NCBI GenBank assembly: GCA_029251085.1
Contig: JAQXDZ010000014.1
Span: forward strand, 1 to 64,000
Source of the DNA: Mariniblastus sp.
GTDB lineage: Bacteria > Planctomycetota > Planctomycetia > Pirellulales > Pirellulaceae
Reading direction: 5' to 3'
DNA: 64,000 bases
The notes below the pieces were generated by a model. The model was not told where the DNA came from. It worked only from the letters and a program-made list of their open reading frames with translations, and ran no database searches. Both the position numbers and the translations under genes were made by a program. Numbering within the stretch: position 1 is the stretch's first letter; the number at the start of each line of letters is the position of its first letter. This document shows positions 39,568 to 54,694 of this stretch, one piece after another.

Positions 39568-40836
39568 ATGAACTTCAAAACACCCCAGGGCATGAACCGA
39601 CGCCACTTCATGCGTCATCTCGCTGGTGCATCCGCCATGACTGGTACCGCACTCGCACTGGGCAACACACTCAAGGCAAGCACGAAACAACTCAAGAAAA
39701 ATAAGAAAGCTGCGATCTTGCTCTGGATGGGAGGCGGCCCCTCAACCATGGATATCTGGGATCTTAAACCTGGTTCCAACAACGGCGGCCCGTTCCGACC
39801 AATTTCAACTGCCGGAGATGTGCAAATTTGTGAGCACATGCCCATGATGGCAAAGAACATGGACAAGCTTTCAATCGTGCGTTCCATGAGCACTCGGGAA
39901 GCCGATCACATGCGAGGCCGGTACTACATGCACACGGGCTACGTGCCAAATCCAAACGTGAAGCACCCGGGGTATGGCTCAGTGATTGCCCACGAACTTT
40001 CTGCCACACGTGAAGACCTTGAGATTCCACCTTTTGTTTCCGTTGGCGGTAACAGTGAAGGTCCTGGATTCCTTGGCATGGCTTGGGCTCCTTTCTCAGT
40101 CAATTCGAACGGACAAGTTCGCAATCTAGACATGGGAATCGAACCTGACCGACTGACTCAGCGCATGCAGGCTCTTAAGATGATGGAGTCCGGTTTCATC
40201 GATTCAAATCGCGGAATTGCCGCTGGCGAGCACGCGAAAGTGCTAAGCAAGACCCTTAGTCTAATGACAAGCGAACAGATGAAGGCGTTCAAGGTCATGC
40301 AGGAACCTGAAGACGTTCAAGAACGTTACGGACAAACTAATTTCGGACGCGGATGTTTGATGGCACGTCGTTTGGTCGAATCGGGCGTGCCTTTCGTTGA
40401 GGTTGGTCTTGGCGGTTGGGATAACCACCAAAACATCTTCCAAACTCTCGAAAACACAAAACTTCCTGAACTTGATCGCGGGATGAGTGCTTTGATGGAA
40501 GACTTGGCAGCTCGGGATATGCTCGATGATGTCGCGGTGATCTGGATGGGAGAATTCAGCCGAACGCCAAGAATTAACGGCAACACTGGACGTGACCACT
40601 GGGCGAGAAGCTGGAGTGCAGTCGTCGGAGGAGCGGGAATGAATTCTGGAATCGCCGTCGGTGCAACCAACGAAGACGGAACCAGCGTTGTCGGTCCTTC
40701 ACAGTCTTCAGAAGACTTGATGGCGACAGTCTGCCACTCGCTGGGAATTTCACTCGAAACAACCTTCACTAGCCAAAGTGGTCGACCGATGAAAATCGCC
40801 AATGGCGGCAAGGTCATCAAAGAACTGGTCTCTTAG
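39568..40836 (+). CDS. DUF1501 family protein, Tat-exported
   Basis: A 422-residue protein with a twin-arginine signal (MNRRHFMRHLAGASAMTGTA). The body follows the DUF1501 alkaline-phosphatase-like fold: KAAILLWMGGGPSTMDIWDL, HMPMMAKNMDKLSIVRSMST, FVEVGLGGWDNHQNIF and VIWMGEFSRTPRINGNTGRD followed by HW. The conserved Asp/His positions look intact for metal binding. It is preceded by AAAGGA and follows the DUF1549/DUF1553 gene by about 100 bases, the standard planctomycete pair. Function unknown; export by Tat implies folding with a cofactor in the cytoplasm. Confidence 0.93.
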   Translation: MNFKTPQGMNRRHFMRHLAGASAMTGTALALGNTLKASTKQLKKNKKAAILLWMGGGPSTMDIWDLKPGSNNGGPFRPISTAGDVQICEHMPMMAKNMDKLSIVRSMSTREADHMRGRYYMHTGYVPNPNVKHPGYGSVIAHELSATREDLEIPPFVSVGGNSEGPGFLGMAWAPFSVNSNGQVRNLDMGIEPDRLTQRMQALKMMESGFIDSNRGIAAGEHAKVLSKTLSLMTSEQMKAFKVMQEPEDVQERYGQTNFGRGCLMARRLVESGVPFVEVGLGGWDNHQNIFQTLENTKLPELDRGMSALMEDLAARDMLDDVAVIWMGEFSRTPRINGNTGRDHWARSWSAVVGGAGMNSGIAVGATNEDGTSVVGPSQSSEDLMATVCHSLGISLETTFTSQSGRPMKIANGGKVIKELVS

Positions 40837-41143
40837 AAACAGACGCAGTTTAAATCGCACGACTAAGGCGATTGAAAAAAGCGATTAGAAAAAGCGAAAC
40901 AAGCGAGCCTTCGATTCATCGAAGTGCTCGCTTTTTTAATAGAAATTCACTGCATCCAGCAGCATTCCACTCGTTCTAGAGATGAAATTCAACCCGGTCA
41001 ATTCACAGCGAACCCCGTAGAACAGCTTCAGCGATTGCTATCAGAAATCAGTATAGCCATGGAAGCCACATTTGGCTTACATTTAACGCTTCAATCTCGA
41101 TTTAGAAACTTGTGCTGGATTCTTAGGAAAGGATGCCTGAATC
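40837..41143. other. Intergenic region between DUF1501 gene and lpxD
   Basis: About 307 bases. The first third holds the terminator at 40901-40937; the remaining 200 bases are presumably the lpxD promoter and leader. A long frame starting at 40924 that runs into lpxD in another phase is not credible. Confidence 0.5.
40901..40937 (+). terminator. Intrinsic terminator after the DUF1501 gene
   Basis: AAGCGAGC pairs with GCTCGCTT and the inner CTTCGAT with ATCGAAG, leaving a two-base loop on paper and one bulged T. A run of six or more T's follows. Confidence 0.85.
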
Positions 41144-42190
41144 ATGATGCTTTTAGGCGAACTCACCGAAATTATCGGTGGGCGATTAACGCAGAACCCA
41201 GACCTCGAAATTTCCGGGGCAGCATCTATCTCGCGGGCAACAGCGAGCGACATTACCTTTGTCTCCAGCCCAAAGTATTACGAAGACTTCTTAAATAGCC
41301 CTGCAATTGCAGCGGTTATTGGGTTCGACGCGAATCCCCCCGAAAAGGCCTGCCTGATCGTGGATGATGTTACCCAAGCTTTTGTCGAGATTGCCGAGCG
41401 ATTTAAACCAACCGTACAGCGCACTCAGTCTGGCATTAGTGATCAAGCGATCGTCAGCCCCAAGGCGACGATCCATGAAGAGGCCTGCATCCATCCCGGT
41501 GCGGTCATCATGGACAATGTCCAAATTGGATCTGGGACCATCGTTTATCCCAATGTCACGATCATGGAAAACTGCATCTTAGGCAAAGATGTTCAGGTCT
41601 TTCCCAACTCAGTACTCTACGAAAATACCATCGTCGGCGACCGCTCTATTCTTCACGCTGGCGTGGTTCTGGGGGCTTTTGGATTTGGCTACCAGTCCAA
41701 CACAGGTCGTCATGTTCTCTCCGCTCAAATTGGCAATGTAGTCATTGCCGAAGACGTGGAAATTGGTGCAAACACAACCATTGACCGAGGAACCTATGAT
41801 TCGACGGTAATTGGTGCAGGCACCAAAATCGATAACTTGGTGATGGTGGGTCACAATTGCATGATTGGAGAACATAACTTGCTCTGTTCGCAGGTTGGAA
41901 TTGCCGGAAGTTGTTCAACTGGTGACTACGTCATTATGGGAGGCCAAGTTGGATTGGCCGACCACCTAAATATCGGTTCGCATGTTTCGATCGGTGCAAA
42001 ATCGGGATTGATGCACGACGTCGAAAGTAACCAGCGAATTTTTGGAATTCCCGCAAGACCGGCGAGAACGGAAATGCAAATTCAGGCGGTCACTTCTAAA
42101 CTTCCAGAACTCCGACGAACGGTCAAAAAGCTGTCCAAACAACTTGATCAACTAAACGATTCTGAAGACAACGGGTCTCGAGCTGCCTAG
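41144..42190 (+). CDS. lpxD: UDP-3-O-acylglucosamine N-acyltransferase LpxD
   Basis: Adds the second hydroxyacyl chain to UDP-3-O-acylglucosamine, the third step of lipid A synthesis. The N-terminal uridine-binding domain (LGELTEIIGGRLTQNPDLEI, ISRATASDITFVSSPKY) is followed by a left-handed beta-helix of hexapeptide repeats (IGSGTIVYPNVTIMENCILG) with the catalytic His in VMVGHNCMIGEHNLL. The C-terminal helix ends KLSKQLDQL. Length 348 is normal. lpxI follows by 26 bases on the same strand, making a lipid A mini-operon, evidence of a Gram-negative outer membrane. Confidence 0.95.
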   Translation: MMLLGELTEIIGGRLTQNPDLEISGAASISRATASDITFVSSPKYYEDFLNSPAIAAVIGFDANPPEKACLIVDDVTQAFVEIAERFKPTVQRTQSGISDQAIVSPKATIHEEACIHPGAVIMDNVQIGSGTIVYPNVTIMENCILGKDVQVFPNSVLYENTIVGDRSILHAGVVLGAFGFGYQSNTGRHVLSAQIGNVVIAEDVEIGANTTIDRGTYDSTVIGAGTKIDNLVMVGHNCMIGEHNLLCSQVGIAGSCSTGDYVIMGGQVGLADHLNIGSHVSIGAKSGLMHDVESNQRIFGIPARPARTEMQIQAVTSKLPELRRTVKKLSKQLDQLNDSEDNGSRAA

Positions 42191-42216
42191 CCCTTATCTC
42201 CGCGTCAAAATTCCCC

Positions 42217-43119
42217 ATGGCCACTGTCACCCAAGATTCTAATCCAGCTAACCTTCCGATCAAAAAAATTGGCTTGGTCGCGGGGTGGGGGCACTTTCCA
42301 GTCTGCATCGCACGCACACTGATTGCCCAAGGTTACGAGGTCCACTGCACCGGCATCAAAGACCATGCCGACCCCGTGTTGAAAGAAATTTGCACGTCTT
42401 ATCGGGTATTTGGCATGGGACGGATGGGAGCCCAGTGCCGTTTTTTCCGGAAAGCGGGTGTGGCTCACGCAACCATGGCCGGCAAAATATTTAAAACGCT
42501 TCTCTTTCAAAAAAAATCTAGATTGATAACGCACTTCCCGGATCTGGTATTCTGGCGACACTTCTATCCGATCGTTCTTTCAAAATCGAAAGATCGGCGG
42601 GACGACACCCTCCTTGGGACGGTCGTTGATTTGTATAAATCAGAAGGAATCACATTTTCCCCCGCAACTGATTTTGCTCCGGAGCTACTGGTGAAAGCAG
42701 GGCCACTGACAAAAACCAAACCCAACAACAGTCAATTAAAAGACATTCGTTTTGGCTGGCAAATGGCCAAAGCGATGGGTGCGTTGGATATTGGGCAAAC
42801 TGTCGTTGTCAAGAATCAAGCAGTGCTGGCCGTGGAAGCTATCGAAGGAACCGATCAATGTATTGCTCGAGCTGGTCAACTTTGCGCAGGCGGGTTTACG
42901 GTTGTTAAAGTTTCAAAACCTAACCAAGACATGCGTTTCGATGTACCGACCATCGGAGTGGGAACCATTGAAACCATTGCTCGCGAGGGAGGACGGGTTC
43001 TCGCGATCGAAGCCGATCGTACAATTATACTTGAGGAAAGCGAGACGATTCGAGCCGCTGAAAAACTCGGAGTCGCCGTATTTGCTTATAATGACACCCT
43101 CTTCGACCAAAACAATTGA
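42217..43119 (+). CDS. lpxI: UDP-2,3-diacylglucosamine pyrophosphatase LpxI
   Basis: Hydrolyses UDP-2,3-diacylglucosamine to lipid X and UMP, substituting for LpxH. The 300-residue length and segments KIGLVAGWGHFPVCIARTLI, MGRMGAQCRFFRKAGVAHAT and the C-terminal KVSKPNQDMRFDVPTIGVGT identify the DUF1009/LpxI family. The conserved Asp of RFDVPTIG is present. It sits directly after lpxD, as expected for the same pathway; lpxA and lpxB are not in the window. Confidence 0.93.
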   Translation: MATVTQDSNPANLPIKKIGLVAGWGHFPVCIARTLIAQGYEVHCTGIKDHADPVLKEICTSYRVFGMGRMGAQCRFFRKAGVAHATMAGKIFKTLLFQKKSRLITHFPDLVFWRHFYPIVLSKSKDRRDDTLLGTVVDLYKSEGITFSPATDFAPELLVKAGPLTKTKPNNSQLKDIRFGWQMAKAMGALDIGQTVVVKNQAVLAVEAIEGTDQCIARAGQLCAGGFTVVKVSKPNQDMRFDVPTIGVGTIETIAREGGRVLAIEADRTIILEESETIRAAEKLGVAVFAYNDTLFDQNN

Positions 43120-43147
43120 TCGCACCAACGCAGGCTTACCAGCAACA

Positions 43148-43501
43148 TCATTTTGCGTCGGCAATGATGGCACCAACTTGCTGATTGAACTGACCGCGAG
43201 TTAAAACCTGATCAAAACCCGCTCGACGAGCTTCGTCCAACGACTCTAAATTGACATGCTGAGCATAACCAATTGTCATCGGGCAAACGGCGTCGGGTAG
43301 CCCTCGCACCGCATCGCCCAAAGCGGTGATCTCCAAGCCTGGAGCCTGCAAGTCCACTATCAACAAATGGGGGCGGACTTCCTGAACCAACGTGATTGCC
43401 GCCTCGGCATTAGTCGCAGTTTGCAGAGTGACATCGTTTTGACGAGCATGGGAACTCGCCGTAGAGGCCATCATCAGATCCGCTGTCAGAAAAATAATCA
43501 T
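43148..43501 (-). CDS. Degenerate response-regulator receiver-like protein
   Basis: A 117-residue single domain with the CheY-like strand-helix rhythm. Asp50 in HLLIVDLQAPG stands where the phosphate acceptor belongs, but the N-terminal acidic pair is reduced to one Asp (LTADLMM) and the conserved Lys near the C-terminus appears as Arg in DQVLTRGQF. It may be a pseudo-receiver that works without phosphorylation. It is convergent with lpxI and has no partner kinase beside it. Confidence 0.65.
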   Translation of the reverse strand: MIIFLTADLMMASTASSHARQNDVTLQTATNAEAAITLVQEVRPHLLIVDLQAPGLEITALGDAVRGLPDAVCPMTIGYAQHVNLESLDEARRAGFDQVLTRGQFNQQVGAIIADAK

Positions 43502-43875
43502 TTGCCCCTCGATGACTTCAGGTCACTTATCGGTTGTGCGCTTCGTCGCTCTGTTTATGTGCGCCAACCGTCCTGCCATACTGTACACACAAGCCTCGCC
43601 AGCTTCATAGACGGCTGCTGGTTACGCGCCGTTAATTTAGAGCAACTTTCGGATCCATAAAAAGGACGCGAATAGTAAATCGGGCATATTTTTGCGGAAA
43701 TTCAAACGAAAGGTGATAGCAAAATTCAATTTGCCACTTCCATTTCCCAGAATTTGGAGATTCACCTAAAAATGCCATTGAGACAGCGACTTGCTCCTTG
43801 GTACTCTCCGTCGCCGGAAATGACGGTTCAATTTAAGCATAAAAGGCGGATTTCGCCACGGTCAAGGATGATCTA
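43502..43875. other. Intergenic region upstream of the DsbD-alpha-like gene
   Basis: About 374 bases between divergent genes. A possible promoter for the gene at 43876 is TTGAGA at 43778 with TACTCT at 43802, 18 bases apart, but the match is weak. No stable structure or gene recognised. Confidence 0.35.
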
Positions 43876-44547
43876 ATGCGGTTTCAATCATTGATATCTC
43901 CCATCGCTTTCGCGTTAACCGCGATGGTTTTGTTCTACTGCCAGACTCCTAAAAATGGGACCAGTTCGGCCCAAGCAATTCCTTTAAAAACAGTCGATTC
44001 CTCATATACGACAGTAGGACACACGCCTCAGGAACGCTCGACTCCCAAGATCAAAGGCGAGACAACTGACGACGCCAAAAAACCTTTTCGACTTTCATCT
44101 CGATTTCATCTAAAAAAAGGATCGGATGAAGGCTATTTGATTGTAAAGTTCGAACTGCCTAAGAAGAGCTACATTTACTCACTCACTCAACCTGAGGGAT
44201 TCGTAAAAACGAAAATTACAGTTGCTGCTTCCCCACATTTCTCACTCATTGGCAAACAGACTTTTACGCCGGATCAAAAGCCAAAAATCATTGAGAGAGA
44301 CCCCGATTTTGGCAAACGATTAGAGAAGCACTCCGGGGTGGTTCAGTTTTTTGTCCCCATCAAGTTAAAGAAAACAATCGCAGCCAACCAACTGCTGATC
44401 AAGTGTGAGGTCGACGGGCAAATATGTAACGAGACGACCTGCCTGCCAATTTCCAGCAAAAAAACAACAGCGAAATTCGCTGGCTTTTTTGACCCAAGTA
44501 ATGAAAAAACGGGTGTACCCAAAAAGACGACGCCCCGAAAAAATTAA
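43876..44547 (+). CDS. Stand-alone DsbD alpha-domain-like periplasmic protein
   Basis: A 223-residue exported protein with an N-terminal hydrophobic segment (ISPIAFALTAMVLFYCQ). Residues about 75-200 match the immunoglobulin-like N-terminal domain of DsbD: KKSYIYSLTQPEGFVKTKIT, GKQTFTPDQKPKIIERDPDF, and the cysteine-bearing ILKCEVDGQICNET-type segment with a Cys pair (IC and TTC). In DsbD this domain passes electrons to periplasmic partners. An AAGGA site precedes the ATG. The large DsbD gene is 291 bases downstream on the same strand, so the two probably work together. Confidence 0.75.
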   Translation: MRFQSLISPIAFALTAMVLFYCQTPKNGTSSAQAIPLKTVDSSYTTVGHTPQERSTPKIKGETTDDAKKPFRLSSRFHLKKGSDEGYLIVKFELPKKSYIYSLTQPEGFVKTKITVAASPHFSLIGKQTFTPDQKPKIIERDPDFGKRLEKHSGVVQFFVPIKLKKTIAANQLLIKCEVDGQICNETTCLPISSKKTTAKFAGFFDPSNEKTGVPKKTTPRKN

Positions 44548-44838
44548 GGCAAGGGATTCTCCAGAAAAGATGTGTCCTTCGTCACACAAGTTCCCAACCG
44601 TGAGCTTGCGGAGCGATAAATCCGCCCCTCGCCGAACGGGATAGATGGAGCGATCGAGCAATTTTTGGTACGATAAATCTCGATTCATCACGGCGACTCC
44701 GGCACTGAGTACGTCCCGATGGGTAAAACTACTTAATCGTGTGATTTGATTAAGAGACCTGCTGTAGACGATCAGACGTAAACGACTTAAGACTTGCAAA
44801 TTTTGTTTTAAGCTTTGAACCCGGGAAGACATTTTTCA

Positions 44839-47427
44839 ATGCAGTCACTATTGAACCGTCACTACATTCTCTGTTTCGCATTCCTTGCGCTTGCTCTGGG
44901 CGACCTCGGAAAACCCCAACCTTGTCTGGGACAAGAACAAGGTCTTTTTCTGCAAGACCAACTCGATCAATTTGGCGACATCCAGTCGAGCGATCCAGTA
45001 TCCACAACTTCCAGCTTTCAAATACTAACCGGGACACGCCAGGGGATTCTTAAAGTCACTGCCGATATCATTCCAAATTGGCATGTCTTTTCGATGAAAG
45101 ATACTGACGGCCCCATCCCCACGAATATCAGCGTGGGTGAATCGGATGACTTCAAATTACTTGGAAAGTTTCGTCCGGATCGAAAACCGCACATCGTAAC
45201 CGAAGAGGGGTTCGACAATCCCTGCGAGGAATTTGAGGGCAGTGTGTCGTGGTCCGCTCCGTTCGAAATCGCGACTGAAATCAACCCGGACACACTAGTA
45301 ATTAATTTGGTGATCAACGGGCAAACCTGTCAAACGAATGGCAATTGCAAACAATTCGAATACAACCTTACAAGTAAGTTCGACGGCGTTAGCGACGAAC
45401 TCACCATTACACCCGATTTCATTCAGCCAAAATTGAAAATCGAAGACCAAAAAATCCGTGGAGCACACGCGGAAATCCGTGGACAAATCATTCGAAACTC
45501 CGGCACTGACAAACCGCTCCGGCCAGGCGACGTCGCCCGCTTAGAAATAACCATCACACCTGACATTGACTGGCACGTTTATGCTTACTCGCTCGAAAAG
45601 ACACGGATCAAGTCCACGATCCTTGGCCTGACTCAAACAAACAGCTGGAGCGTTGTGGGACCGAAACTCTCAGAAGAACCTGAGGCTGGCGAGGCGTTTG
45701 GGGATCCCATGTTCGCCTATTACGAACCAGTGACGCTTGATTTTTATATTACCATTCCTCGCAACGCGAAGAAAAATCAACCTTTCCAATTTAGCGGAAT
45801 CATTGGCCTCGAAACCTGTGATGAAACTCACTGCGATCCACCCACTGGTATCGCATTCTCCGCTTTGCTCAATCTTGGAAAAGTCGCCGCTGCTCCGCTT
45901 ATTTGGAGTGACTCTACCTACGAAGCCGCCGAAAACGCGAACAAACCGCACGGAATTTCAGGGGGGGTACTTCCAGTTGGCGATGAAGTCGACGATGAAG
46001 ATGAAGCGGAAGATGAGGCAGTCGCCTTGCTTGCTGATTCGCCCGAGCAAATTGCAATCATGAACAGTCTTTATGACCCTAACGAAAAACAAAAGGTCAT
46101 CCTGTTCGATGATCTCGATAAGTTTCCCGTCGGGACCGGTGGCAGTAGCACACTCGGGAAAACAACCTTCATTACCGCACTCTTTGGAGCGTTTTTTGGG
46201 GGGATGCTGCTGAATCTAATGCCCTGCGTATTTCCTGTCCTTGGATTAAAAGTGATGGGGTTTGTGATGCAGGCCGGCAGCGAACCGGCAAAAATTCGCA
46301 AGCACGGAATTGCCTTCGCGTTTGGACTGGTCGTTTCGATGTGGATCCTTGGGGGAACCGTTCTCTTCATCAAGCTTTCCTTCGGCGAGGCAATTAACTG
46401 GGGAGCCCAAATGGGTAACCCATATTTCGTATGCGGCATTATCGTCCTGCTCTTCCTCTTGGGATTGAACATGGCAGGCGTTTTTGAGATCGGAACATCA
46501 CTTTCTGGCGTCGATGGTGGTCAGAAAAAAGGCTACACCGGCTCCTTTCTTTCCGGCGTGCTTACCACGTTGATTGCCACGCCTTGCTCAGGTCCGTTTT
46601 TGGGTGCTGCCATGAGCTACACGCTGGCACAAGACCCTTTGCCCTCCATGTTTCTCTTTACCGTTTTCGCGTTGGGAATTTCTTCTCCCTACCTCGTGCT
46701 TTCATTTTTCCCGGCGCTCATTTACAAGCTTCCCAAACCCGGCCCTTGGATGGAGACTTTCAAGGCAATAATGGCGTTTACACTTTTTGCAACCGTTGCA
46801 TTCTTCATGCAGGCCTTTGGTGGACAGACCGGAGTCAGCGGCCTCAGCTGGCTTGTGATGGCACTCGTAGTCATTGGACTTGCCGCTTACTGCTACGGTC
46901 AGTGGAGTGAATCAAGCGTCAAGTTTTCAAAACGATTGACCGTCGGCTATCTCTTACCTTTGGCGATCGCTTCGATCGGCATTTGGATGTGCTACGGAGC
47001 AGTCGAGGAATCTAAAAACCTAGTCTCCAATAGTGCTCACAACGCGGGTGGGCTCGCTTGGCAAGAATGGAACCCGGGGAAAGTCGAGTACACGTTGAAA
47101 AATAACGGCCGACCGATCTGGGTGGACTATACCGCCGATTGGTGACCGACTTGTAAAGTAAACGAAAAGCGTGTCTTTTCGAACAAAGATGTTCTCGCGA
47201 AATTAAAAGAACTTAACTTTGAATTCATTTCAGTTGACGATACCAAGCGACGACCTGAAATAGCCTTGGACTTGTTACGGGTCAACCGATCTATCATTCC
47301 GGTCAACGTGATCTACCCACCGAACTATCCGGATGAGCCAGCGATTATGATCGATACGCTATTCGGGCCGACCGAAGCATTGAAAATCCTCGGTAGAATT
47401 CAAGAGGTCGTCGAAGCTTCTAAGTAA
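44839..47427 (+). CDS. dsbD: Thiol:disulfide interchange protein DsbD, probable selenoprotein (UGA = Sec769)
   Basis: Moves electrons from the cytoplasm across the inner membrane to periplasmic thiol partners. After a signal peptide come two DsbD-alpha-like domains (first with NGQTCQTNGNCKQFEY, second with ETCDETHCDPP), then eight helices with redox Cys463 (NLMPCVFPVLG) and Cys583 (ATPCSGPFLG). The C-terminal thioredoxin-like domain begins NNGRPIWVDYTADW; the next codon is TGA (47143-47145) followed by PTCKVNEKRVFSN, and the frame stays open to TAA at 47425, ending GRIQEVVEASK. TGA replaces the first Cys of CXXC, giving UXXC with Cys772. A SECIS-like hairpin follows. Conventional annotation would end the gene at 47145. 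Start at ATG 44839 is preferred over TTG 44815. A sequencing error or pseudogene is the alternative. Confidence 0.85.
47163..47181 (+). promoter_or_regulatory. Bacterial SECIS-like hairpin in the dsbD coding region
   Basis: CGAAAAG pairs perfectly with CTTTTCG, with loop CGTGT. The G at the second loop position (47171) is separated from the UGA by 25 bases. Bacterial SECIS elements recognised by SelB lie immediately downstream of the UGA within the coding region, with a short stem, a small apical loop and a conserved G in its first two positions, so both shape and spacing fit. A four-base outer pairing (TTGT with ACAA) can extend it. Confidence 0.7.
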
Positions 47428-47517
47428 TCAAGCTTGAGATAGCGAGCTAACCATTGCGCCTGCTTAGGCACACGCCGACCCTTTCGGATGCTTGGAACGT
47501 GTCCAACCGCAATTTGA

Positions 47518-48591
47518 CTACAACGTTTTGTCGTGAACTGTGACTCGTTTTTCACCCGCTTTGACGGTGCCGATCACCCAATTTTCGTGTCCGTGCTTGC
47601 TCAATGATCGCTGAATCGATTCGGCATAATAGGGACTTACGATCATTGCCAATCCAACCCCCATATTAAACACGCGGAACATCTCCTCGGTCTCTACTTC
47701 TCCAAGTTTTTGCAGCCAATCAAAAACCGGCGGACGTTCCCACGCTTGGCCATCAATATCAATCGCCATGCCTTCAGGGGTGATTCGCTCGATATTCTCT
47801 TCGAGACCACCGCCGGTGATGTGCGCGATTCCATGAACAACGTTCTTGACCTTGTAATGACTAAGAACATCCCGAATTGCTTTGGTATAAATCAAGGTCG
47901 GCTCGATTAACACGTCACCAATGGACCGATCCGTACCTTCCATTAAGTCTTCTGGTTTTTTATTACCAACATCAAATGCAATTTTGCGAACGAGACTGAA
48001 ACCATTGGAATGCACACCACTAGAAGCGACACCAATCACAACATCCCCGTCGGCAATGGAATGGCCGTCAATTACATGATTTCGTTCAACCACTCCCACG
48101 CAAAAACCAGCCAGATCATAATCTCCCGGTTGGTAGAGATCAGGCATGATCGCCGTCTCTCCGCCCAACAGTGCACAGTCGGCGGCCAGGCAACCGTCGC
48201 TGATACCGCTTACAATTTGCTCAAGTGCGACGGGGTCATCGTGGGACATCGCCACATAATCTAAGAAAAACAGCGGCTCCGCTCCGCAACAAATCGCGTC
48301 GTTCACGCACATCGCCACCAAATCAATACCCACCGTTCGGTGGCTGTTGAGCATCTGCGCCAATTTCAGCTTGGTCCCAACACCGTCGGTGCAAGCCACC
48401 AGCATGGGGTCCTGATAATTTCTTCGGAAAAGCTTACTTTCAAAGTCCAGCTGGAACAGCCCGGCAAATCCGCCATCAAGCTGCCGGACACGAGGTGAAA
48501 AGGTCCGATGCATCAACTTTGGGAGTCGCTTCATCGCCTCGTTGTAAACTTCGAGATCAACGCCGGAATCTTTATAGGAAACGCCTGTCAT
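47518..48591 (-). CDS. purM: Phosphoribosylformylglycinamidine cyclo-ligase PurM
   Basis: Closes the imidazole ring to make aminoimidazole ribonucleotide, the fifth step of purine synthesis, with ATP. Diagnostic segments: [82 protein letters not shown] and [14 protein letters not shown]. The start is taken at the ATG at 48591, giving 357 residues, near the family norm; a TTG eight codons upstream is possible. It is convergent with dsbD. Confidence 0.96.
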
Positions 48592-48896
48592 TAGCTCGCG
48601 GATCGGTCTGGCCAACTCAGCGAGTTGGGTTGTTTTTCGGATGAATTAACTTGCCTATAGTTTCGTCGATTGGCTCGAATCCGGCAACCGTGCCGAATTG
48701 AACAACTAAAACCAATGGCAAAGTGAATCTGTGAGGCATTTTAAAAAAACCGATGAAATATTTACATGAAATCGTGGAAAAATTTCTCCCCATGCATCCA
48801 TCGACGGCGCGTTTAATCCGCCCTTAAGCTAACCCCGTCGCAAAGGAAACAACTGAAAAAAAAGGGTGGGATTGCCACGAGAGTCAAAATCGACCT

Positions 48897-50987
48897 ATGT
48901 TTACACCTATGCGACAACCTCTACCAAAATTTCAATTCACGCACCAATTACCCTACGGTGCGGTCGTTCACGACGACGGGGTCCAGTTTGTAATCTTTAG
49001 TCGTCACGCAAGTGAAATGAGACTGCTGCTTTACCAGTCGGTCGAAGATACGGAACCGACAGAGATCATCACCTTTGACCCCGCCAGTGATCGGTGGGGG
49101 GACATTTGGAGCATTTTTGTTCCTCAGATCTCGTTCGGCCAACTCTATCATTTTCAAGCAAATGGCCCCAACGACCCAGACCGCGGTCTTCGGTTCCATC
49201 CCAATGCCCGATTAATTGACCCCTACGCTAAGGCTCTCGCCGGTACCTTTCAGCAGAGCCGTGATGGAATTATCCGCCCGCCCAAATGTGTCGTTGTTGA
49301 CGACCATTTCGACTGGGGCGGAGATCGCCATCTCCGCCGGGACATGTCCGAATCCGTTATTTATGAGATGCACGTAAAAGGCTTTACGCAACACCCATCC
49401 AGCGGCGTTGCGCACCCCGGCACCTATTTGGGAGTCATCGAAAAAATTCCCTACCTGCAATCGTTAGGGGTCACTGCCGTCGAACTCATGCCAGTCCACG
49501 AGTTCCCAATCCTCGCGATGGACGGCGCTGCTTCAGACAAACCAAATTACTGGGGTTATGACCCGCTCGCGTTTTTCGCCCCCCATCGAGGTTATGCTGC
49601 CGGATCAGAACCGGGCTCCCAGGTTGTTGAATTCAAGCAAATGGTTAAGTCCCTGCATGAAGCAGGAATTGAAGTCATCCTGGATGTCGTCTTCAACCAT
49701 ACCTGCGAAGGAAACAACCGTGGACCAGTCCTGAGCTTTAAAGGGCTTGAGAATCCGGTTTACTACATGCTGGAAAACGACAAACGGAACTATAAAAATT
49801 ATTCCGGGTGTGGAAATACGATCAACGGCAATCACCCCATCGTTCGGGAAATGATTTTCCATTGCCTCCGCCACTGGGTGCATAACTATCACGTCGATGG
49901 ATTTCGATTCGACCTGGCTTCTATCCTGAGTCGCGATCGTAATGGCGAGCTAGTCCCAAACCCGCCGCTTGTTGAGGCGATTGGTGAAGATCCCCTGTTG
50001 GCTGACACCAAGATCATTGCAGAAGCCTGGGATGCAGCCGGCGCCTATCAAGTTGGCTCTTTTGGTGACGATCGCTGGGCAGAGTGGAATGGTCGTTATC
50101 GAGATGACATTCGCGGATACTGGAGAGGCGACCACGGTACCCGTGGGCCTCTCGCTACTCGTCTAGCTGGATCAGCTGACCTTTACCAACCCGGGGGCCG
50201 ACCTCCTTGTTGCAGCATCAACTTTGTGACATCGCACGATGGATTTACACTTAACGATCTTGTGAGTTACTGCGAAAAGCAAAATCTTGCCAACGGTGAA
50301 AATAATCGCGACGGCGACAACAACAACTTTAGTGAAAACTTTGGTATCGAAGGCCCCACCGATGAACCACAAGTCAATCAACTTCGACTTCGCCAAATCA
50401 AAAACATACTGACCACACTTATGCTTAGTCAGGGTGTACCAATGCTGGTCGCAGGCGACGAATTCCAAAGAACCCAACAGGGAAACAACAACGCCTACTG
50501 CCAAGATAATGAGATTTCCTGGTTGGACTGGGATTTAGTTAACGAAAATTCGGAGCTTGTTAGGTTCTGCCGATCGTTAATCGAATTTCGACGCCACCAA
50601 CCAACGGTTCGACGCCACCATTTCCTCACCGGAGTTGCTGACAGTGAAGATTGTTGGCCCGATGTCAGTTGGTACAATCCACAAGGAACAAGCATCGATT
50701 GGCACACAGACGCTTTGCCGATCCTGTGCCTGCTCGCCGCTCCGGTGGAACACCGGGACTCGGAAATATTGGGACGGGATGTCCTACTGATGTTTAATTC
50801 AAGCCACGAATCAGCGGAATTCGTCATTCCGAAAATTGCCAATCCTAGACGCTGGCACCTCTTTATTGACACCGCTGCCGAATCGCCTCAGGACATCTAC
50901 CCCAATCTTGACGGACCCGTGCTCGATAGCGAGCGAGCCTGCCCTTTACCGCTGAAATCACTGAAGGTTTACGTCGCTGGTAACTAA
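48897..50987 (+). CDS. glgX: Glycogen debranching enzyme GlgX
   Basis: A GH13 isoamylase-type enzyme of 696 residues that removes alpha-1,6 branches from glycogen limit dextrins. An N-terminal CBM48-like domain (AVVHDDGVQFVIFSRHASEM) is followed by the (beta/alpha)8 barrel with VILDVVFNHTCEGN, nucleophile Asp339 in GFRFDLASIL, acid/base Glu376 in IIAEAWDAAG and Asp448 in VTSHDGFTLNDL. The C-terminal beta domain contains VLLMFNSSHESAEF. No other glycogen genes are in the window. Confidence 0.95.
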   Translation: MFTPMRQPLPKFQFTHQLPYGAVVHDDGVQFVIFSRHASEMRLLLYQSVEDTEPTEIITFDPASDRWGDIWSIFVPQISFGQLYHFQANGPNDPDRGLRFHPNARLIDPYAKALAGTFQQSRDGIIRPPKCVVVDDHFDWGGDRHLRRDMSESVIYEMHVKGFTQHPSSGVAHPGTYLGVIEKIPYLQSLGVTAVELMPVHEFPILAMDGAASDKPNYWGYDPLAFFAPHRGYAAGSEPGSQVVEFKQMVKSLHEAGIEVILDVVFNHTCEGNNRGPVLSFKGLENPVYYMLENDKRNYKNYSGCGNTINGNHPIVREMIFHCLRHWVHNYHVDGFRFDLASILSRDRNGELVPNPPLVEAIGEDPLLADTKIIAEAWDAAGAYQVGSFGDDRWAEWNGRYRDDIRGYWRGDHGTRGPLATRLAGSADLYQPGGRPPCCSINFVTSHDGFTLNDLVSYCEKQNLANGENNRDGDNNNFSENFGIEGPTDEPQVNQLRLRQIKNILTTLMLSQGVPMLVAGDEFQRTQQGNNNAYCQDNEISWLDWDLVNENSELVRFCRSLIEFRRHQPTVRRHHFLTGVADSEDCWPDVSWYNPQGTSIDWHTDALPILCLLAAPVEHRDSEILGRDVLLMFNSSHESAEFVIPKIANPRRWHLFIDTAAESPQDIYPNLDGPVLDSERACPLPLKSLKVYVAGN

Positions 50988-51155
50988 TTCTTTAGTCTCA
51001 GTTCGTGGAAATGCTACCACCTTCAAAGCACCGAACACCGCGTAATTCGCAGATGTTCGGTCGGATTTCTCTCCGCGTCTTGTTTCTAAGCGGGCACGGG
51101 ATAATACTAAATGAATCGCCGCGATCTGAAATGACTCAAACTTGAGGAGACTTCG

Positions 51156-52283
51156 ATCGATAACAACACCTGCTCATCACAGCAAGGAAGCGTCCAGGCG
51201 ACGCTCCGGCTGACTCGCATTCCCGGCGTCGGGCCAATCGTCTACTCTGAGCTGGTCCAACATTTTGGCTCTGCTTCCAACGTATTCAAAGCCACCGCTG
51301 CTGAACTGGAACAACTTCAAGGAATCGGGCCAAAACTCGTTAACTCGATCCTGAGTGCAAGCGATTTAGCAACGGCCGATTCGATCATTGAGAGATGCCA
51401 GACTCACGGAATTGACATGATCGAAAGGTACGCGAATATTTATCCGGAACGTCTTTCGGAAATTTACGACCCGCCTTCAATCCTGTATTCTCGTGGCAAA
51501 CTGCTTCCTACAGACAACCTAAGCATCGCCATTGTTGGCTCAAGACATGCGACAAGATATGGAATCAAAATTGCATCTCAACTCGCCCGTGGCCTTTCAA
51601 TGGCGGGGATCACGATTATTTCTGGATTAGCTCGAGGTATCGACGCCGCTGCCCACCAAGCGGCGCTGGAGGCTGGAGGCAGGACAATCGCCGTTCTTGG
51701 AGGCGGTCATTTGAAACTTTATCCTGCTGACCACGCTGCGCTTGCTAATGAAATCACGCATCATGGCGCTGTCATTTCAGAATCACCGCCAGACACTCCG
51801 CCTCGCAGTGGATCTTTCCCAAGACGCAACCGCATCGTCTCCGGATTAAGTTTAGGAGTTGTCGTTGTGGAAGCTGCCCAAAGAAGTGGCGCTTTGATTT
51901 CTGCGAGGTTGGCGATGGAGCAGGGAAGGGAAGTGTTCGCTGTCCCTGGACCAATTAACAGTCGCATGTCCAAAGGCTGTCACAAATTGATTCAAGACGG
52001 AGCAAAACTGGTAAGCTCCGTAGACGACGTGCTGGATGAACTTGGTCCGCTTGCCACGCCCATTCAAACCAACGAAGCGGGAGAAATCCGCAATCCGGCC
52101 GAACTTAAGCTGACAGAGCAAGAGCGGAGCATCTTGAATACAATCGAAACAACTCCGACGTTGATCGATTCAATCATTGAGCAAACCAACATCCCCGCAG
52201 CAAGAGTCATGTCAACGATAAGTATTCTTGAAATGCGGTCGTTAATTCATCGCGTGTCGGGTAACTCAGTTGCCCGTCGCTAA
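51156..52283 (+). CDS. dprA: DNA processing protein DprA, probable AUC start
   Basis: Loads RecA on incoming single-stranded DNA during transformation. The Rossmann-like domain contains SIAIVGSRHATRYGIKIASQ, GITIISGLARGIDAAAHQAA, TIAVLGGGHLKLYPADHAAL, PPRSGSFPRRNRIVSGLSLG and AAQRSGALISARLAMEQGRE. The C-terminal 65 residues form a winged-helix-like DprA domain. Upstream of the first ATG (51417) the frame encodes a complete helix-hairpin-helix (LTRIPGVGPIVYSELVQHFG, QLQGIGPKLVNSILSA), so the gene must begin earlier. No ATG, GTG or TTG exists there before the in-frame stop; AUC at 51156 has GAGGAG six bases upstream. A CTG at 51210 is the alternative. Confidence 0.88.
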   Translation: MDNNTCSSQQGSVQATLRLTRIPGVGPIVYSELVQHFGSASNVFKATAAELEQLQGIGPKLVNSILSASDLATADSIIERCQTHGIDMIERYANIYPERLSEIYDPPSILYSRGKLLPTDNLSIAIVGSRHATRYGIKIASQLARGLSMAGITIISGLARGIDAAAHQAALEAGGRTIAVLGGGHLKLYPADHAALANEITHHGAVISESPPDTPPRSGSFPRRNRIVSGLSLGVVVVEAAQRSGALISARLAMEQGREVFAVPGPINSRMSKGCHKLIQDGAKLVSSVDDVLDELGPLATPIQTNEAGEIRNPAELKLTEQERSILNTIETTPTLIDSIIEQTNIPAARVMSTISILEMRSLIHRVSGNSVARR

Positions 52284-52309
52284 ACACACCCCCTTCCCAT
52301 GTTTTGACA

Positions 52310-53077
52310 ATGAAGATCATCACGTACAACATCAATGGCATTCGCTCGGCAATCAAAAAAGGATTATTCGATTGGATCGAAGACCATGACTACGACGTAA
52401 TTTGCTTGCAAGAAACCAAAGCCCACTCAGGTAGCGTCCCTGTCTTATTGCTCGACAGTATTGGTTACCACCACTGTTGGCATTCTGCCAAGCGAAAAGG
52501 CTACAGCGGCGTTGCCACGTTCTCTAAAATCAAACCTCACCACTTCGAGTGTGGCATGGGTCTCGAAAAATATGACGTCGAGGGCCGAATCCTGCGTACT
52601 GACTTTGGAAATTTCTCGATAATCAATTGTTACATTCCCAATGGATCAGCAAGCCAAATCCGTCACAACTTCAAACTGGAATTCCTCAAAGACTTCTCGC
52701 GATGGGTAAAAAAAATAAGAGAGGAGCAACCGCGGGTCATCGTGGTAGGAGACTTCAACATCGCGCAAACACTTTTGGATGTCCCCCAAGCTATCGCGGA
52801 CACGAATCCATCCGGCTTTCGCCCAGACGAACGTTTATGGCTCCAACAGTGGCTCGACGAAGGTCTTGTCGATTCATTCCGCAATCAGAATCCGAGTGAG
52901 CGAAGCTTTACCTGGTGGCCCCCAACCAACCCAACGAGAACCGATCGAGGCGCTTGGCGGATCGACTACCAATTCGTCAGTCCGCCTCTTCAATCGTCAA
53001 TTCATAACGTATCGCACCTAAAAGACATTTTCTATTCTGACCATTGCCCCGTTTTGCTTGAATTCGATGAAAATTAA
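52310..53077 (+). CDS. xth: Exodeoxyribonuclease III (AP endonuclease)
   Basis: A 255-residue exonuclease III-family enzyme that cuts DNA at abasic sites and degrades 3' ends. Motifs: IITYNINGIRSAIKKG, VICLQETKAH (catalytic Glu), GVATFSKI, VVGDFNIAQTLLD (Asp/Asn pair), WPPTNPTRTDRGAWRIDYQF and YSDHCPVLLEF (catalytic Asp-His). The ATG at 52310 is preferred to a TTG two codons earlier. It follows dprA by 26 bases on the same strand and may be co-transcribed as a DNA-processing pair. Confidence 0.94.
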   Translation: MKIITYNINGIRSAIKKGLFDWIEDHDYDVICLQETKAHSGSVPVLLLDSIGYHHCWHSAKRKGYSGVATFSKIKPHHFECGMGLEKYDVEGRILRTDFGNFSIINCYIPNGSASQIRHNFKLEFLKDFSRWVKKIREEQPRVIVVGDFNIAQTLLDVPQAIADTNPSGFRPDERLWLQQWLDEGLVDSFRNQNPSERSFTWWPPTNPTRTDRGAWRIDYQFVSPPLQSSIHNVSHLKDIFYSDHCPVLLEFDEN

Positions 53078-53119
53078 CGTCAAAATGGCGGGCTCAACGA
53101 TCTCCAACCGAGGGTACCC

Positions 53120-54694
53120 ATGCGACCACGCCATTTATCTATCATCACTGCCTGTTTAATTTGGTTCATTTCACCAAGTACTGAACTACTGGCGGAATTG
53201 AAATTACCATCATTCTTTAGCAATCAAATGGTACTTCAACGCGACAAACCCGTATCCATCTGGGGGTGGGCAGACGCCAACACTCAAGTCGACGTCGCGT
53301 TCAATGGAAATACTGTTTCCACAAAATCCAATGACGACGGAAGCTGGCGACTGGCGCTACCGGCAATGAAAGCCAATGGCCAGGGAATGAACATGGTCAT
53401 TGAAAATGGCAAAGACAGAGTTGAAATCAAAAACATCTTGATTGGTGAAGTTTGGTTTGCGAGCGGGCAGTCGAACATGGCATTTAAGCTTCAAGCTTCA
53501 CTCGATGCGAAAACTGACTTACCCAAATCTAAAAATCCAGCGATTCGGTTTTTCCTCGCCACCAACACTCCTGCCGCTCAACCGCAGACCGATATTGCGG
53601 GAACCTGGAACCTTTCGTCTCCAGAAACGTCAGGCAAATTTTCGGCAGTTGCCTATTACTTTGCAAAACAAATTCAGCAAGAAACAGGAATTCCTGTCGG
53701 CATTATCCAATCCTGTTGGGGTGGTAAAAGATCTGAATGTTACACAAGCAGAGAAGCTATGCTCTCTAACTCGCACGGAAAAAAAATGATCGCAGAACTT
53801 GACCGCGCGGCGAAAGCTTTTGACTCCGTTGCGGCCAAGAAAAAGCACGACGCTGCGATGGCTAATTGGGAAAAGAGAACTGCTAGGGTTCGCGCCCAAA
53901 ACAAAAACAAAGCAGCCTCCGAACGTGCCCGACTACCCCGTCGCCCTCTACCGGTAAAACCAACCTACGAAAATGAGCGCAATCCGACGGTTCTTTACAA
54001 TGGAATGATTCATCCGTTCGTTGGCTACACCATGCGGGGAGCAATTTGGTATCAAGGCGAAGCGAACGCTAAAGCGGGCTTGGCTGAGATCTACCAGGAA
54101 ATGTTTACTTTAATGATTCAGGACTGGCGACAACGCTGGGGCGATGAGTTTCCGTTTTACTTCGTCCAATTGGCAAATTTCAAGCCAGTTACAACCGATC
54201 CAGGTCAGCAAAGCGATTGGGCGACCGTACAGGATCAACAAAGAAAAACCTTGGAACTGGCTGGCACAGGCATGGCGACCATCAACGACGTGGGAGACGC
54301 CAGGGACATTCATCCAAAAAACAAAAAGACCGTTGGCCTACGACTGGCTCGCTGGGCTTTAAGCAACGATTACCAGAAACCGGTTACCGTCAGCGGACCA
54401 CTCTACAAGTCTTCCCGAGTAAAAGCTGGAAAGATGATCATCGAATTCGCTCACACGGGTAACGGTTTGAAAACCGGTGATGGAAAGCCTCTCCAGCGGT
54501 TCGAGGTAACTGGAGACAATCAAACTTGGCATTGGGCAGATGCCAAAATCAGCAACAACACAATCATCGTGAGTTGCAAAGAAGTGCCGAATCCCAAGGC
54601 AGTCCGATACGCCTGGGCGGCCAATCCAGAAGGGGCGAATTTAGTTAATTCAGAAAACCTACCCGCGTCAATCTTTTCAACCAAGAACAACTAA
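53120..54694 (+). CDS. Sialate O-acetylesterase-like SGNH esterase, secreted
   Basis: A 524-residue exported protein (signal peptide about 1-25). After a small beta domain (FFSNQMVLQRDKPVSIWGWA) comes an SGNH-type esterase: block I with catalytic Ser in FASGQSNMAFKLQ, GVIQSCWGG-like GIIQSCWGGKRSE, block III WYQGEANAKAG, and the His of DARDIHPKNKKTVG. The C-terminal part is a beta domain with the family-typical VRYAWAANPEGANLVNSENL. It removes O-acetyl groups from sialic acid or other acetylated sugars; in planctomycetes acetylated algal polysaccharides are likely targets, which is inference. Confidence 0.93.
   Translation: MRPRHLSIITACLIWFISPSTELLAELKLPSFFSNQMVLQRDKPVSIWGWADANTQVDVAFNGNTVSTKSNDDGSWRLALPAMKANGQGMNMVIENGKDRVEIKNILIGEVWFASGQSNMAFKLQASLDAKTDLPKSKNPAIRFFLATNTPAAQPQTDIAGTWNLSSPETSGKFSAVAYYFAKQIQQETGIPVGIIQSCWGGKRSECYTSREAMLSNSHGKKMIAELDRAAKAFDSVAAKKKHDAAMANWEKRTARVRAQNKNKAASERARLPRRPLPVKPTYENERNPTVLYNGMIHPFVGYTMRGAIWYQGEANAKAGLAEIYQEMFTLMIQDWRQRWGDEFPFYFVQLANFKPVTTDPGQQSDWATVQDQQRKTLELAGTGMATINDVGDARDIHPKNKKTVGLRLARWALSNDYQKPVTVSGPLYKSSRVKAGKMIIEFAHTGNGLKTGDGKPLQRFEVTGDNQTWHWADAKISNNTIIVSCKEVPNPKAVRYAWAANPEGANLVNSENLPASIFSTKNN

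Follow-up and report, generated by a model that had tools for sequence, protein, structure and literature searches.

A DsbD-type membrane thiol reductase with a predicted selenocysteine in its gamma domain in Mariniblastus sp.

The window analysed here, the whole 64,000-nucleotide stretch of Mariniblastus sp. DNA, very probably carries the gene for a DsbD-type membrane thiol reductase of full length, with a predicted selenocysteine (Sec) in the UxxC motif of its gamma domain (Table 1). DsbD is a membrane protein that takes reducing power to the cell envelope, the electrons being relayed from cytoplasmic thioredoxin to a membrane Cys pair, then to the gamma domain and on to the N-terminal domain. 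An earlier sequence-only reading had proposed that this planctomycete makes a selenoprotein DsbD, and the proposal is supported by the sel genes of the genome, by a column which holds either UGA or Cys among homologs and by conservation of the stretch after the TGA.

Table 1. Coordinates of dsbD, its domains and redox residues, the putative hairpin and the upstream gene in the window
Feature	Position	Strand	Remarks
Separate small gene upstream of dsbD	43876..44547	+	Weak DsbD_N match (21.8 bits, cut-off 25)
dsbD with in-frame UGA	44839..47427	+	862 residues from ATG 44839, predicted Sec at 769
Cys164...Cys170, probable redox pair	45328..45348	+	First N-terminal domain
Second N-terminal beta-sandwich domain	45523..45849	+	Marginal Pfam DsbD_N (residues 229-337)
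DsbD_TM domain	46180..46809	+	Residues 448-657, with Cys463 and Cys583
Thioredoxin-like gamma domain	47089..47322	+	Pfam Thioredoxin_7 (residues 751-828)
UGA codon	47143..47145	+	Predicted selenocysteine 769, UxxC position 1
TGT codon	47152..47154	+	Cys772, UxxC position 2
Putative bacterial SECIS hairpin	47163..47181	+	7-bp stem (47163-47169 with 47175-47181), loop CGUGU (47170-47174)

Read with the standard code, the dsbD frame stops at the TGA; with TGA translated as U it is open from 44815 to 47427 with one TGA inside. The codons read TGG (47140-47142), TGA (47143-47145), CCG ACT TGT AAA (PTCK) and, after an extension of 93 codons past the UGA, TAA (47425-47427), so the continuing frame described from the letters alone is borne out. 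The same reading had placed the TGA on the first catalytic Cys of DsbD, which agrees with the codons and with an alignment to the gamma chains of E. coli cDsbD, where ADWCVACK is aligned to ADW[U]PTCK (E about 0.005). The protein is matched by Pfam DsbD_TM (PF02683; 57.9 bits, cut-off 27.1), by Thioredoxin_7 (52.4 bits, cut-off 27) and, just below the cut-off of 25, by DsbD_N (24.8 bits), a family which is above its cut-off in five of seven relatives scanned. The Thioredoxin_7 match runs across the UGA codon, which argues against the TGA being a true stop, that is, against a gamma-less DsbD being made while what follows has its own start or is a remnant in decay. In favor of such a stop, UGA is an ordinary stop in the window too, since it ends eight of the 36 ORFs of more than 250 codons (dsbD being one of the eight, and all 36 being mechanical ORF calls and not proven genes).

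When 17 ORFs of the 64-kb window were compared (more than 100 codons, ending in TGA, with an in-frame extension of more than 25 codons), dsbD ranked first in ORF length, in length of extension and in strength of its SECIS-like stem; judged by ORF size and hairpin, there was no second convincing case among the other UGA-extended ORFs of the window. Across the genome the pattern TGGTGAnnnnnnTGYAAR occurs at seven places, one of which is dsbD. Decoding of the UGA by an altered code or another suppressor tRNA, without Sec, would likewise keep the frame open across it. This explanation was rejected as exceedingly improbable, given that U769 is the sole UGA of the 862-residue protein, that TGA terminates other ORFs of the window and that tRNA-Sec, selA, selB and selD are all present.

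The genome itself (5.49 Mb, 171 contigs, 92.7% complete) has a tRNA-Sec (selC) above the Rfam cut-off with anticodon TCA, and selA, selB and selD, each above its curated cut-off, the four genes being spread over four different contigs. All four had been put forward as genes to look for if the protein contains Sec, and all four are there. It is worth mentioning that selD (L019, C164:3027-3935) sits in an open frame of 738 codons, which is long for SelD alone and perhaps a fusion. Among 114 genomes, selB was found in 35 of 39 with a UGA-DsbD and in 34 of 75 others (Fisher p 2e-6, a guide only as the genomes are related). Here selB was counted only above its cut-off, since other elongation factors give selB matches in all 114 genomes. 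The four UGA-DsbD genomes without selB above the cut-off are G002 (89% complete), G004 (80%), G023 (71%) and G051 (78%), and six further hand-picked UGA-DsbD genomes all possess it (6/6).

A search for the membrane and gamma domains together (TM+gamma) gave matches in 117 of 117 genomes. In at least 39 of the 117 the gamma region contains a TGA in frame, and in all 39 this TGA is the first position of the CxxC motif. From 182 matching segments, 24 were dropped as not spanning TM+gamma, and removal of 20 identical copies from the other 158 left 138 distinct sequences; column 1 of CxxC is TGA in 83 of these, TGC in 35 and TGT in 20. Outside this column none of the 138 has a TGA in frame. The alignment with homologs suggested in the sequence-only reading thus returned UGA (83) or Cys (55) in every sequence, although the pattern that supplied many of the UGA sequences demands TGA and so skews the 83:55 ratio, at least 39 of 117 genomes being the less biased figure. 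That pattern, scanned against genome contigs, gave 89 stretches, namely 68 with TM+gamma, seven partial DsbD and 14 without a DsbD match or with a weak one. By the ranks in their records, the 75 DsbD loci belong to Planctomycetota (46), Verrucomicrobiota (26) or are unranked (3); the exact DNA pattern misses variants such as DFTGPNUATC and so does not bound the spread outside the matched phyla. The UGA-DsbD is also present in K23_9 (L144, its record titled complete genome/chromosome) and in the named strain Persicirhabdus sediminis KCTC 22039 (L129). A sequencing or assembly error in an ordinary Cys codon, for which the draft state of the genome in 171 contigs might speak, was therefore rejected, its probability being practically negligible since other genomes, the complete chromosome and the named strain included, carry the same TGA.

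The changes beyond the TGA are mostly at third positions. Between the window and L022, substitutions at codon positions 1, 2 and 3 number 7, 4 and 34 in the 93 codons after the UGA, and 14, 8 and 119 in the 300 codons before it, and against six close relatives the window shows a third-position excess after the UGA as before it. The stretch after the UGA is under purifying selection and evolves like coding sequence; conservation beyond the TGA, on which the selenoprotein proposal had been made to depend, is apparent in these six relatives and in the protein alignment. A true stop or pseudogene is very unlikely and was rejected on this selection, on a stop codon that is invariably TGA and invariably at the catalytic Cys, and on the links of the UGA to selB and to the hairpin described below.

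A number of variants were seen among the loci. In G021 the dsbD copy is in two parts in different frames, upstream of the UGA. A DsbD subgroup (L055, L061, L064, L067, L069) keeps UxxC, with GPG or GPN replacing the ADW motif before the UGA, and in two genomes of the genus of the window, G016 (L031, L076) and G025 (L063, L075), a UGA-DsbD and a Cys-DsbD occur together. The 14 pattern loci without or with weak DsbD match (L081, L095, L106, L117, L120, L132, L137, L140, L143, L154, L158, L159, L160, L164), many with the motif DFYADWU..CK, come from Armatimonadota, Zixiibacteriota, Gemmatimonadota, Krumholzibacteriota, Cyanobacteriota and other records, and are perhaps other UxxC thioredoxin-like proteins.

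For Sec to be inserted, SelB would carry Sec-tRNA to the UGA, steered by a small downstream hairpin. In the UGA sequences a stem starts about 15-20 nt past the UGA and has GU in its loop. A stem that scores at least 5 and holds GU in its loop occurs in 71 of 78 UGA sequences, the other seven falling short of the stem threshold, and in none of 55 Cys sequences; the stem score alone was reached by eight of the 55, none with a GU loop (five of the 138 sequences were lost from this count to identical downstream DNA or N). In a comparison with random synonymous codons, p was 0.05 or less for 51% of UGA and 5% of Cys sequences, and 0.06 for the window. The hairpin of the window shows no excess fold stability over 64 nt (z-score 0.91; 161 of 200 shuffles fold as stably or more so), and a search of 46900-47600 against Rfam gave no match. 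Its weakness by energy alone is a point for a true stop, and the case for the hairpin rests on comparison because the window hairpin by itself is unremarkable.

The comparison is clearest in the DYTADW group, which includes the window (32 distinct sequences). Here 95.1% of cells pair, and changes on both sides occur in 35 cells against a shuffled mean of 14.8, with none of 500 shuffles as high; pairing falls to 31-65% when the 3′ side is slid by 1-3 columns. Less striking are the number of pairs with both sides changed (5, a value reached in 11 of 500 shuffles) and that of further pair types (10, reached in 100 of 500). The third positions of the Glu and Phe codons covary (GAG with TTC in 24, GAA with TTT in 6, other combinations in two), and the Asn and Ser codons behave likewise (AAC with TCG in 14, AAT with TCA in 9, nine exceptions). 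As read from these alignments, the synonymous covariation in the stem is unexplained by selection on the protein, although some changes are shared through relatedness of the sequences. In the second group, which is DFTADW-like, the stem differs in sequence and its commonest loop is GGUC (19/45), the loop known from E. coli fdhF.

In an alignment of 28 Sec proteins, hand-picked as the window and 27 of 30 listed loci, Cys463 and Cys583, which lie in opposite halves of the membrane domain, are invariant, as are position 769, Cys772 and Pro821, while Cys164 and Cys170 are present in at least 90%. In the structure model (mean pLDDT 78.4, pTM 0.51) two beta-sandwich regions at the N-terminus are followed by helices of the membrane part and by a thioredoxin-like part, in which a helix starts at 770 and a strand covers 822-826. 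Pro821 thus lies just before this strand, which fits an earlier remark on a cis-Pro-like segment in the extension. By Foldseek the gamma part of the model matches cDsbD crystal structures with a TM by target of 0.69-0.74; matches to adhesin and pilus domains were set aside as loose beta-sandwich likenesses. E. coli DsbD (2fwe, 2fwf, 4ip6, 1uc7) has in common with the window protein the membrane and gamma domains, a probable N-terminal domain, the relay cysteines and the ADWCxxC motif. However, the latter has Sec for the first gamma Cys and, in its model, two N-terminal beta-sandwich domains, and the two are distant in sequence.

The top Foldseek match overall was to the N-terminal domain of ScsB of Proteus mirabilis (6c29, E 1e-6), presumably a Cys protein, which loosely shares the pair of N-terminal beta-sandwich domains. 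The window protein might then be a selenoprotein but a ScsB-like reductase with a special substrate (e.g., in metal stress) and not a general DsbD, and the cut-off of the NCBIfam DsbD subfamily NF001419, a model narrower than the family, is indeed missed (114 bits, cut-off 330). However, the likeness to 6c29 is a weak and loose structural match (TM by target 0.41, rmsd 12.9), cDsbD is well matched by the gamma part and the UGA-dsbD is the only DsbD_TM gene found in the 92.7% complete genome, so that a ScsB-like protein would need a general role too. This alternative to a general Sec-containing DsbD is unlikely.

The small gene upstream of dsbD is a possible DsbD partner. A copy with 69-75% identity is present near dsbD in five loci of relatives, and weaker matches occur in other UGA-DsbD loci, some inside dsbD itself. 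Pfam-annotated neighbors at 39568-54694 of the window include DUF1501, LpxD, LpxI, an AIR synthase-like protein (47518-48615, minus strand), alpha-amylase/CBM48, DprA, an endonuclease/exonuclease/phosphatase family protein and a SASA esterase; none of the Pfam-annotated genes in this interval accounts for the UGA.

Sec has precedents in domains of the DsbD-gamma type, since the published UxxC selenoproteins of PF13098 and cd02953 (the latter presumably the DsbD-gamma domain model) probably belong, by the parts of their descriptions available, to the same domain family as the gamma domain of the window. The likeness to these "thiol:disulfide interchange protein" or "Trx-like 2" selenoproteins is one of description, as they are known by domain name and the available text gives no full-length membrane architecture for them. 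"Trx-like 2 (Thiol disulfide interchange protein)", cd02953 with UxxC, is listed with 22 sequences in the part available (PMC2398784), and three cases of a thiol:disulfide interchange selenoprotein in genomes are given in another partly available source (PMC1794560). A selenoprotein review counts 119 families or subfamilies, and its table, as far as available, includes "Thiol:disulfide interchange protein" (PF13098, UxxC) and TsoB but no entry that was found for a DsbD_TM selenoprotein (PMC13188914). TsoB, a rhodanese/DsbD fusion-like selenoprotein, aligns with the window protein in its DsbD-like part (141.9 bits with NF045694, far short of the cut-off of 805). It differs in having two Sec as UxxxxU, according to the available part of the review (PMC13188914), and no rhodanese domain is among the Pfam matches of the window DsbD. 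Selenoproteins are reported from planctomycetes (PMC4807772). In the freely accessible journal literature, as far as available, no Sec-DsbD was found beyond TsoB and the UxxC "thiol:disulfide interchange" families. What the present analysis adds is the architecture of the whole protein, its occurrence across Planctomycetota and Verrucomicrobiota, a hairpin that covaries and repeated exchange between Sec and Cys.

A quick maximum-likelihood tree built from the 138 sequences requires at least 10 changes between Sec and Cys, eight of them forced by starred branches. The clade of the window DsbD contains both planctomycete and Akkermansiaceae proteins, which points to transfer of dsbD between the phyla. 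The same-genus Cys relatives L033 and L034 are nested in this Sec clade and are without the GU-loop stem.

By analogy with the known relay, electrons would probably pass from cytoplasmic thioredoxin to the membrane pair Cys463/Cys583 and on to Sec769/Cys772, which probably alternates between a selenenylsulfide and a reduced form and would pass them to the N-terminal pair Cys164/Cys170 and to envelope substrates. The likely gain from Sec would be faster exchange by a better nucleophile, or a guard against over-oxidation. As no other DsbD_TM gene was found in the genome, its envelope thiol chemistry may need selenium, and envelope thiol reduction may thus depend on it. It is conceivable, if distinctly doubtful, that this reduction is gated by selenium, full-length Sec-DsbD being made when selenium is replete and the UGA acting as a stop when it is poor, to leave a gamma-less membrane protein. 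If so, one codon would turn on or off the sole DsbD-type electron conduit that was found in the genome.

The predicted Sec lies in a transmembrane electron conduit and not in a soluble enzyme, and reading the gene by the standard code removes the catalytic domain of DsbD. Because its tree requires at least 10 exchanges between Sec and Cys, the family offers matched Sec and Cys forms with which it may be asked directly what selenium buys in thiol-disulfide exchange.
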